From the NCBI GenBank assembly GCA_030446715.1, contig JAUJMU010000005.1, positions 21,176 to 85,175 of the forward strand: a stretch of DNA of 64,000 nt, written 5' to 3'. Of this stretch, positions 52,550 to 55,414 are shown in pieces. This DNA is from Cytophagales bacterium (GTDB lineage: Bacteria; Bacteroidota; Bacteroidia; Cytophagales; 172606-1). The first letter of the stretch is position 1. Each line of letters opens with the position of its first letter. The notes beneath the pieces are model-generated. The model saw only the letters and a program-made list of their open reading frames with translations, made no database searches and was not told where the DNA came from. The translations under genes were made by a program, and so were the position numbers.

Positions 52550-52996
52550 TTAGTTTCTCAACTTCTGAAAAAAAGCCTTCAGCAAACCGGCGCATTCTTC
52601 AGACATCACCCCGGCCACGACCTCTGTTTTCGGGTGCAGCAATTTGGGGCTGATCAGCGAATAACCCCGTTTTTCGTCCTTTGCGCCGTACACCAGCCGG
52701 CCGATCTGCGCCCAGAACAAGGCACCGGCGCACATGGGGCAGGGCTCCAGGGTAACGTACAAAGTGCACTGCGGCAGGTACTTACCGCCAAGGTGGTTGG
52801 CCGCCGCCGTGATGGCCAGCATTTCAGCGTGGGCGGTTACATCGTTGAGTTGCTGCGTCTGGTTACGGGTCCGCGCTACAACGGTGCCGCCGCAGACCAC
52901 CACTGCCCCTACCGGAATCTCGCCCGCGTCAAAAGCCATCTCCGCCTGCTTCAGGGCAAGGCGCATGAAGTTTTGGTCATCGGGCTGCTTTTGCAT
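52550..52996 (-). CDS. tadA: tRNA-specific adenosine deaminase / nucleoside deaminase
   Basis: A zinc deaminase of 148 aa. The zinc ligands are His56 in HAE (with catalytic Glu58) and the two Cys of LEPCPMCAG (86 and 89). The surrounding GEIPVGAVVV and RNQTQQLNDVTAHAEM segments match TadA, which makes inosine at the tRNA-Arg wobble position; guanine deaminases of the same fold are the alternative. It diverges from the Fic gene across 67 bases. Confidence 0.92.
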   Translation of the reverse strand: MQKQPDDQNFMRLALKQAEMAFDAGEIPVGAVVVCGGTVVARTRNQTQQLNDVTAHAEMLAITAAANHLGGKYLPQCTLYVTLEPCPMCAGALFWAQIGRLVYGAKDEKRGYSLISPKLLHPKTEVVAGVMSEECAGLLKAFFQKLRN

Positions 52997-53024
52997 GCAG
53001 AACTTGTTTTACTTTACATCAAGA

Positions 53025-53054
53025 AAGTAAAATAATGAATTTATTATTTTACTT
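53025..53054. promoter_or_regulatory. Perfect 12-bp palindrome over the fic promoter
   Basis: AAGTAAAATAAT (53025-53036) and ATTATTTTACTT (53043-53054) are exact complements with a 6-base spacer. The right arm overlaps the TACTTTTG promoter element, and the fic ATG begins 9 bases later. This is the layout of an operator for a dimeric repressor. Confidence 0.6.
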
Positions 53055-53057
53055 TTG
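53050..53057 (+). promoter_or_regulatory. -7 promoter element of the fic gene
   Basis: TACTTTTG matches TAnnTTTG. With a start site 6-7 bases downstream, transcription would begin at or next to the ATG at 53064, giving a leaderless or nearly leaderless mRNA. No -33 TTG is seen at normal spacing. Confidence 0.5.
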
Positions 53058-53063
53058 CATCAC

Positions 53064-54212
53064 ATGGAGAAACCCATACAAATAGAGCAATTTAACGCTG
53101 GAACGAAGTTGAAAGGCACCGGGTATAGTTTCTTTGTTCCTGCAAAAATCAATCGCCAGTGGAATTGGGCTGATCCTAAACTGAATACCTTACTTGAACA
53201 AGCCTCCATTCAGTTGGGTCAGCTGAACTCTTTTGCCCGTCTGGTGCCCAATATCGATCTGTTTATCCAACTGCATGTAACCAAGGAAGCCGTAATTTCG
53301 AGCCGGATCGAAGGCACCCGAACCAGCATTGATGAGGCTCTGTTGCCGGAGGAGGACATCAACCCGGAGAGAAGAAACGACTGGCAGGAAGTCAATAATT
53401 ACATTCTTGCCTTAAATCAAGCGGTTGAAGAACTTGCTGATCTGCCATTATCTTCCAGACTGCTCCGTAAAACGCACGGAATTCTTTTGCAGGGTGTGAG
53501 AGGCAAACACAAAATGCCCGGCGATTTCCGCAGCAGCCAAAACTGGATTGGTGGTGCCAGTCTGCAAGATGCTGCATTTATTCCACCAGCTCACCAATAC
53601 GTGGGAGAATTGATGGGCGACCTGGAAAACTTCCTGCATAACGATACCATTGCGGTACCAGATCTGATCCGGATCGGAATAGCCCATTATCAGTTTGAAA
53701 CTATTCACCCTTTTCTGGATGGCAACGGCCGGATCGGGCGGTTGCTGATTACGCTTTATCTGGTAAGCAAAGGAATCCTGAGCAAACCCTTGTTATATCT
53801 TTCGGTCTTCTTTGAAAAGGATAAGACCCTCTATTACGACAACCTGACGCGGGTCCGGGAGAAAGATGAAATGGGAAACTGGTTGAGGTATTTTCTGGTG
53901 GGTGTTGCCGGTACTGCACGGCAAGCCTCTGAAACGCTCAGCAAAGTTTTGGCACTGAAAACGCAACTGGAAGGAGAAATTCACCAGTCATGGGGCCGCC
54001 GCACCCAGAGTGGTCTTGTCCTGCTGGCACATTTGTTTAGAAATCCGATTGCAGACATCAAAGTTGTGCAACAAATATGCGATTTGAGTCCCAAAGCCGC
54101 CGGTGACCTGATGCAATGTTTTGAAACGCCTGGCATATTGCGGGAATCTACCGGAAGGAGCCGAAACCGTATTTTTGTTTTTGATCAGTATCTGGACCTG
54201 TTCAAATCCTGA
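53064..54212 (+). CDS. Fic-domain protein (AMP transferase type, class II)
   Basis: Fic enzymes transfer AMP or related groups from nucleotides to protein hydroxyls. The 382-aa protein has an N-terminal Fic_N region, the inhibitory motif SSRIEG (about residues 79-84, class II type, lying N-terminal in the same chain) and the complete active-site loop HPFLDGNGRIGR (215-226). A C-terminal winged-helix-like domain follows (FRNPIADIKVVQQICDLSPKAAGDLMQCFE). All catalytic residues are present, so it should be active once the inhibitory helix moves. There is no antitoxin gene beside it. The ATG at 53064 is preferred to the TTG three codons upstream. Confidence 0.93.
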   Translation: MEKPIQIEQFNAGTKLKGTGYSFFVPAKINRQWNWADPKLNTLLEQASIQLGQLNSFARLVPNIDLFIQLHVTKEAVISSRIEGTRTSIDEALLPEEDINPERRNDWQEVNNYILALNQAVEELADLPLSSRLLRKTHGILLQGVRGKHKMPGDFRSSQNWIGGASLQDAAFIPPAHQYVGELMGDLENFLHNDTIAVPDLIRIGIAHYQFETIHPFLDGNGRIGRLLITLYLVSKGILSKPLLYLSVFFEKDKTLYYDNLTRVREKDEMGNWLRYFLVGVAGTARQASETLSKVLALKTQLEGEIHQSWGRRTQSGLVLLAHLFRNPIADIKVVQQICDLSPKAAGDLMQCFETPGILRESTGRSRNRIFVFDQYLDLFKS

Positions 54213-54295
54213 ATGTACTCCTGCACCAATAAGTCAGCAATACTCATTGAGTGGCTTCAGAAAGGGAGGAGATTTTGTACTTATCTTTTCAGACA

Positions 54296-55414
54296 ATGCT
54301 CTTCAAAGACATTCCCGGCCTTACGGATATTAAAAGAACACTAATCGGTACAATCGGACAGGGCCACGTGGCACACGCCCAGTTATTTTTCGGCAATGAA
54401 GGTGGTGGCAGCCTTGCCATGGCGCTGGCCTATGCCACTTACCTGAACTGCGAGGACAAACAGCCCGGCGACGCCTGCGGAAAATGCTTCTCCTGCAGCA
54501 AGCTGAACAAACTGATTCATCCTGATTTTCACCAGATTTTTCCGGTAGCCACCACCAAAAAGGTTACTTCCAATCCGCGGAGCGAGTTTTTTATGGCCGA
54601 CTGGCGGGCCTTTCTGAAGGAATCACCCTATTACTGCCTGAGCGACTGGCTTGCTTATATCGGCACTGAAAACAAGCAGGCCAATATTTCGGCCGAAGAG
54701 AGCCGGCTGGTGATTGGCAAGCTGAGCCTGAAAGCGTTTGAGGCGGAGTACAAAGTGCTGCTGCTCTGGCTGCCGGAGGTAATGCACGTAACAGCAGCCA
54801 ACGCCCTGCTGAAAATTCTGGAAGAGCCGCCGCCCAAAACAGTGTTTCTGCTCGTCAGTCACCAGCCTGACAAGGTGCTGACCACGATCCGGTCCCGCAC
54901 GCAGCTGGTGCAGGTCCGTCCGTTTACGGATGTGGAGATTACGGAGCTACTGGTATCGGAATACGGCATGGAAACCCGTCGGGCTGCCCAGATTGCCCGG
55001 CTGGGTGACGGCAACCTGAACCGTGCGCTGCGCCTCACCGGAGAGACCCGCGAGGATCACCACGAAATGTTCCGGGACTGGATGAATCTGTGCTTCCTGC
55101 GTAAGTACGCCGACCTGATCGAAAGGACCGAAAAATTCGGCAAGCTTAGCCGTGATGCTCAGAAAAATTTGATGCAGTACGGCATGAGCATGGTACGGGA
55201 GTCGCTGGTGTGGTCGCAGCAGGCCCGTAATCTGGTGCGGCTGGAAGGCGAGGAACTAGCTTTTGTCGAACGTTTCTCCAGGGTAATTTCTCTCGACAAG
55301 GCAAACTGGCTGTACGGCCTGCTCAATGAAGCCTGCTTCCACCTGGAGCGGAATGGTAACCCCAAAATCATTTTTCTGGATACGTCACTGGCCGTAACGG
55401 CAGGTATACGTTGA
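54296..55414 (+). CDS. holB: DNA polymerase III delta' subunit
   Basis: A clamp-loader subunit of the AAA+ family. The N-terminal lobe has IPGLTDIKRTLIGTIGQGHVAHAQLFFGNEGGG (a modified, non-ATP-binding P-loop), the zinc-binding cysteines CGKCFSCSKL, and the sensor region NALLKILEEPPPKTVFLLVS ... TIRSRTQLVQVRP. The start is the ATG at 54296 (372 aa); the frame extends upstream, but only with residues that do not match the family. It follows the fic gene in the same direction with an 83-base gap. Confidence 0.9.
   Translation: MLFKDIPGLTDIKRTLIGTIGQGHVAHAQLFFGNEGGGSLAMALAYATYLNCEDKQPGDACGKCFSCSKLNKLIHPDFHQIFPVATTKKVTSNPRSEFFMADWRAFLKESPYYCLSDWLAYIGTENKQANISAEESRLVIGKLSLKAFEAEYKVLLLWLPEVMHVTAANALLKILEEPPPKTVFLLVSHQPDKVLTTIRSRTQLVQVRPFTDVEITELLVSEYGMETRRAAQIARLGDGNLNRALRLTGETREDHHEMFRDWMNLCFLRKYADLIERTEKFGKLSRDAQKNLMQYGMSMVRESLVWSQQARNLVRLEGEELAFVERFSRVISLDKANWLYGLLNEACFHLERNGNPKIIFLDTSLAVTAGIR

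Follow-up and report, generated by a model that had tools for sequence, protein, structure and literature searches.

Class II Fic enzymes carry an inhibitory motif, (S/T)xxxE(G/N), before the Fic motif HPFx(D/E)GN(G/K)R. SoFic, known from Shewanella oneidensis (SO_4266) and from E. coli (EcSofic), joins a Fic domain and a class II inhibitory helix to a C-terminal winged helix. Sofic acts as a toxin against phage, and how it is regulated has been called elusive; in E. coli its C-terminal domain is needed for toxicity, and the available part of the same paper makes no mention of DNA binding by that domain (PMC12249575; this and the other papers cited here were available in part, and what is said of each refers to that part). 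DNA binding by SoFic is stated elsewhere as not demonstrated (PMC10628234). EcSofic is followed by the gene of a 47-aa antitoxin, AS1 (PMC12249575); as AS1 has been described for E. coli only, it does not define the whole family.

The Fic enzyme CbFic2 (PDB 8cil) likewise ends in a winged helix, and its activity is altered by DNA binding; it was assayed with random DNA, and the authors raise the matter of non-specific binding (PMC10628234). CccR of Yersinia pseudotuberculosis, a distant Fic–wHTH protein and a secreted effector, uses its C-terminal domain to bind inverted repeats that lie in the promoter of its own gene, which it represses, as seen by gel shift, footprint and reporter; family-wide arrays are not described for it in the available text (PMC9755527). 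RptR, which is linked to type I restriction loci, is an autorepressor with three repeated operators over its promoter, but it is an unrelated 9-kDa protein that reads 6-bp palindromes in direct repeats, and the paper on it never uses the word Fic (PMC12255303). A role in regulating fic was proposed for fused helix-turn-helix domains as early as 2009 (PMC2686095), and the available part of a review of toxin–antitoxin systems holds nothing on the SoFic-type family (PMC2701414). A self-repressing Fic protein is known already in CccR; for family-wide arrays no published account was found, and a search for earlier reports of arrays or operators before SoFic-type genes, which covered few subscription-journal papers or preprints, returned none. 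What the present locus adds is, very probably, a Fic–winged-helix protein with a conserved operator array through which it represses itself.

The locus lies in a 64,000-nt stretch of DNA from a Cytophagales bacterium (GCA_030446715.1, contig JAUJMU010000005.1, positions 21,176–85,175 of the forward strand), here called the window, whose numbering is used throughout (Table 1). A domain search finds Fic_N and Fic domains in the product of its fic gene. An earlier note on this DNA had placed the protein in class II, and the motifs bear this out: SSRIEG at residues 79–84 is followed by HPFLDGNGR at 215–223, the start of HPFLDGNGRIGR (215–226). Among 32 aligned proteins S79, S80, E83 and G84 of the inhibitory motif are invariant, as are H215, P216, N221 and G222 of the catalytic motif. 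The C-terminal winged-helix-like domain that the same note had described is present in the AlphaFold2 model (mean pLDDT 89.5, pTM 0.88), in which helices 332–339 and 343–354 form a helix-turn-helix. The SoFic structure 3zcn aligns with residues 14–382 of the model (Z 38.5, rmsd 2.8, 351 residues aligned), at an identity of only 26%, and structure 7cb8 ties with it among the best structural matches (38.9). The PADLOC SoFic model PDLC03963 matches residues 20–381 with 372.7 bits. Because the score against the NCBIfam SoFic equivalog NF046030 is 154.5 bits, below the curated cut-off of 550 bits, the protein is, as judged by its sequence, a SoFic relative and not the SoFic equivalog itself. It presumably AMPylates a target protein, and an anti-phage role is possible.

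Table 1. Features of the fic locus, in window coordinates
Feature	Position	Strand	Remarks
tadA	52550-52996	-	divergent from fic; start 7 bp from half-site 1
half-site 1, TTGTTTTACTTT (AAAGTAAAACAA on - strand)	53004..53015	-	17 bp before half-site 2
half-site 2, AAAGTAAAATAA	53024..53035	+	middle copy of array
half-site 3, TTATTTTACTTT	53044..53055	-	23 bp after half-site 2; palindrome partner
TACTTTTG, putative -7 element	53050..53057	+	overlaps half-site 3; ends 6 bases before ATG
fic	53064..54212	+	382-aa class II Fic, SoFic type (Fic_N + Fic + C-terminal winged helix)
inhibitory-helix motif SSRIEG, residues 79-84	53298..53315	+	class II, N-terminal to Fic motif
Fic catalytic motif HPFLDGNGRIGR, residues 215-226	53706..53741	+	read from sequence
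C-terminal winged-helix domain, ~residues 311-382	53994..54209	+	AlphaFold2 model; SoFic 3zcn alignment
predicted recognition helix PKAAGDLMQCFE, residues 343-354	54090..54125	+	model and co-variation

A perfect 12-bp inverted repeat ending 9 bases before the ATG (53064) and overlapping a promoter element had been reported in the earlier note. Its arms, AAGTAAAATAAT (53025–53036) and ATTATTTTACTT (53043–53054), are indeed exact, and can be extended to 16 nt with one mismatched pair (53024–53055); the right-hand half-site overlaps TACTTTTG. The palindrome is, however, only the right-hand part of a row, whose third half-site, TTGTTTTACTTT, had been missed. The half-site cores alternate as TTTTACTTT (53007), AAAGTAAAA (53024) and TTTTACTTT (53047), at spacings of 17 and 23 bp, and the array (53004–53055) covers the fic promoter region. 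Like CccR, the window protein combines a Fic domain and a C-terminal domain, here predicted to bind DNA, with inverted repeats in its own promoter, but in CccR there is a single pair of 10-bp repeats separated by 26 bp (PMC9755527), whereas the half-sites here alternate 17 and 23 bp apart. When up to three mismatches are allowed, the palindrome is matched once in the 64-kb window and not at all in 100 shuffled versions of it. In the genome as a whole (6,425,628 bp), AAAGTAAAA-N4-16-TTTTACTTT is found once; any other match to the inner pair has at least two mismatches, and any other match to the outer pair at least three. At up to three mismatches the matches, the window's own included, number 14 for the inner pair and 7 for the outer, against 11 and 15 in the reversed control. 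No place outside the array comes within one mismatch of either pair, so that a single genomic operator is likely for this protein. The same genome holds another Fic-domain gene, a distant one (G000:C18:138416-139087; 28% identical over query residues 70–282), at which the palindrome pattern does not occur.

The consensus of the Bacteroidota -7 element is TAnnTTTG, which TACTTTTG matches; by eye, no TTG is seen at the -33 distance from it. A sigma-70-like promoter over the array (53008–53036) was set aside as being at chance level (1 found vs 1.6 expected). As TACTTTTG ends so close to the ATG, transcription plausibly starts at or near the start codon, and to that extent the almost leaderless start put forward in the earlier note is tenable here. 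The feature is not conserved. Upstream of fic, TAnnTTTG occurs in 22 of 127 loci of the own-phylum sample described below (10.3 expected), and in none of these 22 does it lie within 9 nt of the start codon, so that the leaderless feature is local and incidental.

Array and fic stand between tadA and holB. The order sod–tadA–holB is kept in a genome of the same genus (G001), where the starts of tadA and holB are 81 bp apart, with no fic, as against 1305 bp in the window's own genome; array and fic are therefore most simply an insertion here, loss in G001 being the alternative. In the other six genus or family genomes drawn, tadA was not seen adjoining holB. At E 1e-60, fic is absent from all seven same-genus or same-family genomes drawn, two of them only 72–75% complete, and occurs in 5 of the 59 genomes searched, namely its own and four of the same order. 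The gene is probably a horizontally acquired single-gene module of the SoFic type. None of six nearby window proteins has a PADLOC match at E 1e-10. Between the fic stop and the holB ATG lie 89 nt (54213–54301), which leave no room on that strand for the 47 codons of a Sofic-AS1-type antitoxin without overlap, in contrast to EcSofic. On the other side, the tadA promoter can only sit in, across or beyond the array, and tadA, a housekeeping gene, might be co-controlled by Fic at this locus. Such co-control would be a local accident, since tadA is not among the 14 commonest neighbour families of the first-set loci (best 80 of 587 relatives plus five).

Eighty-five loci made up this first set: of 587 confirmed relatives the best 80, the four same-order loci found among the 59 genomes searched, and that of the window. 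Its labels include Siphonobacter, Nitrosomonas, Nitrospirae, Deltaproteobacteria, Turneriella and Lentisphaerae, and many are metagenome bins, so that single taxon labels may be wrong. Among these best 80 of 587 plus five, at least three half-sites, each with at most one mismatch, occur upstream of fic at 44 of 85 loci, compared with 3 of 84 downstream regions and none of 76 far-upstream or 85 coding regions. An inner spacing of 23 bp is seen in 46 cases; 33 cases have an outer spacing of 17 bp, and 8 have one of 18 bp. A plain inverted-repeat score proved too weak in AT-rich DNA (p<0.01 in 30/82 upstream, 11/84 downstream, 1/76 far upstream and 0/85 coding regions of the same set). It was replaced by a fixed-geometry scan, in which the spacing is fixed and the half-site may be any sequence; the geometry came from these 85 loci and was carried over to the later samples. 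The earlier note had proposed to look in relatives for the palindrome beside the gene. An array is present in most of them: arrays scoring above every one of 200 shuffles are found upstream at 65 of 83 first-set loci (best 80 of 587 plus five), downstream at 9 of 84 and far upstream at 1 of 76.

Wider samples agree. In the own phylum, Bacteroidota, a gene matching the SoFic model at E 1e-80 is present in 156 of 395 genomes; 130 loci were taken (30, and 100 further among the matches listed), of which 127 could be scanned. Arrays above all 100 shuffles stand upstream at 85 of 127, downstream at 13 of 125 and in coding sequence at 1 of 127, while 42 of the 127 have no upstream array above all shuffles. 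A second phylum, that of locus L018 (labelled Nitrosomonas), has the gene in 73 of 398 genomes, and 70 loci were taken; here the counts are 29/69 upstream, 20/68 downstream and 1/69 coding, and at z>4 the array is upstream only in 26, downstream only in 12, on both sides in none and on neither in 31 of 69. The samples partly overlap through recurring loci and are thus not fully independent. Other periods fit 6 to 24 of the 127 own-phylum regions (60 shuffles each), against 89 for spacings of 22–24/16–18 bp. Spacings of 26–28/12–14 fit 90 of 127 and are taken as the same arrays with the half-site frame moved by 2 nt, because the 40-bp period is identical. The half-sites themselves vary widely between clades (AAAGTAAAATAA, AAACTTGACTAA, AACTTGAGATAA, TTCTGCAAATAT, TATCTCCATTAT), that of locus L005, TTCTGCAAATAT, being unlike the window's. 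The half-site sequence shifts among clades; the spacing hardly does.

Viral contigs yielded 99 relatives, of which 80 (L313–L392) were kept and 79 scanned. Arrays above all 100 shuffles lie upstream in 29 of 79, downstream in 7 of 77 and in coding sequence in 0 of 79; since 29 of 79 have upstream arrays, such modules may be carried by phages or prophages. SoFic proper was sampled with NF046030, which at E 1e-130 matches 13 of 369 genomes of the class of genome G445, 11 of them over the cut-off. A TCGACA-type array stands upstream at p<=0.05 in 8 of these 13 loci (L295, L297–L301, L304 and L305), in seven of the eight at p<=0.02, and at L296 ATGTCGA/TCGACA copies are visible at p 0.109. At L302, L303, L306 and L307 the chosen fic start is internal or doubtful, which puts the true upstream region outside the test; L302 (p 0.04) and L306 (p 0.03), with unrelated sequence, were left out of the count. 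The ATGTCGA/TCGACAT-type repeats before SoFic-model loci form an operator class other than the window's.

The variation of the array was compared with that of the protein. A column-by-column test on 73 loci ranked K344 second and could not separate it from columns 243 and 77, which are likely clade markers. A half-site AGT and K/R344 are both present or both absent in 62 of the 73 loci, with 11 exceptions, although half-site orientation is ambiguous in divergent clades and was assigned by nearest relatives, so that the 12-mers lean towards agreement. An independent-pairs test on the tree did not reach significance (3 pairs from K/R344, 2 from R348), and in 8 pairs drawn from operator changes residue 344 was the same in 5.8 on average. 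Because K344 could not be separated by column and the tree pairs were too few, a test over protein segments was made on a larger set: of 187 loci whose array scored z>4, 186 had a usable protein, and thinning at 80% identity left 158. Orientation-free operator similarity was compared with identity in each 11-residue segment, identity elsewhere being removed.

Residues 334–353, which make up the helix-turn-helix, predict operator similarity best (partial r 0.40 vs 0.25 elsewhere). Segments starting at 334–343 are the top ten of 372 among pairs at least 45% or at least 50% identical; the best r is 0.395 in the former (0.204 in the best segment elsewhere) and 0.397, at 341–351, in the latter (0.249), and over all pairs of the 158 loci it is 0.259 vs 0.149. 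The top single column is K344 (0.395; next 0.266). Helix-turn-helix segments lead in 60 of 60 locus bootstraps, and when operators were swapped 60 times among related loci they reached at most 0.179, and any segment at most 0.204. The result does not depend on the AAAGTAAAA class, the removal of which (128 loci left) gives 0.432 vs 0.336; among the AAAGTAAAA loci taken alone, 30 in number, helix segments do not come first (best segment 110, r 0.292; segment 340, r 0.264), as is to be expected of an operator that scarcely varies. The top five segments all start at 337–342 both in the first set (59 loci, drawn from the best 80 of 587 plus five) and in the own-phylum sample (67 loci). In the second-phylum subset (32 loci) segment 341 ranks 18th of 372 over all pairs and 5th among pairs at least 40% identical, and 18 non-redundant viral-contig operators give no clear ranking (343 fifth, 342 seventh, 341 43rd). 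Judged by these comparisons, sites and C-terminal domain have changed together across the family.

Some relatives carry the array on the other side of the gene. It lies within about 60 nt after the fic stop in 9 of the 18 first-set loci (best 80 of 587 plus five) that have no upstream array above all shuffles: L056, L062, L073, L075, L078, L081, L082, L085 and L086. Fic and its downstream array are followed at L082 by a restriction subunit (HSDR_N, ResIII) and at L073 and L085 by a DNA methylase, while the gene after fic at L062 looks, by eye, like a transporter. This suggests that Fic might control restriction or modification genes at such loci. Pfam has no match for L073:2-1852 and L085:1-2001, two of eight neighbour proteins. 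An HsdS gene precedes fic at L233 and L096, and a 68-aa piece after fic at L233 has no Pfam match. Within flanks of up to 2 kb there is no partner gene common to the first-set loci (best 80 of 587 plus five): the commonest family occurs at 13 of 85 and the next at 8 of 85, these two being HsdM- and HsdS-like (by Pfam, HsdM at L014 and L050, HsdS at L022). A wide scan of the same set called 64 arrays in 16 kb upstream, 14 in 21 kb downstream, 17 in 259 kb elsewhere and 4 in 95 kb inside fic; because it also calls arrays in these last two classes, a lone downstream call with z close to 4 could be a chance event.

It is highly probable, on the sequence evidence set out above, that this Fic protein is a single-gene SoFic-type module which binds its own array through the C-terminal winged helix and represses itself; the C-terminal domain very probably reads the array and keeps fic off. 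Weighing against this are the 42 of 127 own-phylum loci with no upstream array above all shuffles and the 31 of 69 second-phylum loci with none on either side at z>4, the arrays downstream of fic, the exceptions to the pairing of K/R344 with AGT, the non-significant tree pairs, the lower helix ranks in the second-phylum and viral-contig subsets, and the silence of the E. coli study on DNA binding. The protein, probably a dimer like SoFic, would set its recognition helix on the three alternating copies of AAAGTAAAATAA across its own promoter. As the spacings of 17 and 23 bp average 20 bp, near two turns of DNA, the half-sites would face roughly the same side. An occupied array would block RNA polymerase. 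An AMPylating enzyme that may be toxic would thereby be kept at a low level, in addition to the check by its own inhibitory helix. In relatives with an array just after fic, three of them before a restriction or methylation gene, Fic may control that gene. A bolder but unlikely extension is that the array acts as a DNA antitoxin: a row of dimers would be held non-toxic on it, and release, when a phage destroys, modifies or out-replicates host DNA, would derepress fic and start AMPylation. The C-terminal domain would then be the joint which couples the state of the DNA to enzyme activity, and in restriction-linked relatives Fic would time the expression of restriction genes.

Autorepression has to be weighed against readings in which the array serves otherwise. 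That Fic binds the array mainly as an activator or a sensor seems decidedly unlikely, even though position alone cannot give the sign of regulation, the distance from array to ATG varies among loci, and TAnnTTTG overlaps an array called at z>4 in only 11 of the 22 sampled loci having the element; against it, half-site 3 of the window runs into the putative -7 element, and the only protein of the kind for which a test was found, CccR, is a repressor (PMC9755527). Promoter palindromes usually belong to some regulator, which might be a host protein unrelated to Fic, but the array accompanies fic across many groups, varies in step with the Fic helix-turn-helix and occurs once in the genome, which makes this a very improbable reading.

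Equally slight is the chance of a mobile element that carries fic and has these repeats as its ends or recombination sites. The empty 81-bp tadA–holB junction in the same genus would suit such an element, as would the few relatives with arrays on both sides (L016, L030, L061, L115, L154 and L171). Arrays are, however, mostly one-sided in the first set (64 upstream vs 14 downstream; best 80 of 587 plus five) and never two-sided at z>4 in the second phylum; the window has no downstream array, no neighbour family recurs beyond the 13 of 85 loci given above, and co-variation with a helix would not be expected of such sites. Least probable of all is an RNA structure, be it a tadA terminator or a regulatory hairpin. 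Although the arms are long AT-rich inverted repeats, the two terminator-like sites in 52950–54320 fall inside fic, at chance level, there is no Rfam match, and a hairpin does not need a 40-bp period with both direct and inverted copies of a half-site.

If autorepression through the array is the right reading, it bears on a family in which the regulation of the toxin has been called elusive (PMC12249575), and on the unsettled job of the C-terminal domain. An operator that is conserved, keeps a nearly fixed geometry and seems to be read by this domain makes a direct and cheap test possible. SoFic proteins are predicted to bind ATGTCGA/TCGACAT arrays, and operators become predictable for many members of the family. 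The loci linked to restriction stand out as candidates for control of restriction genes by a Fic protein.
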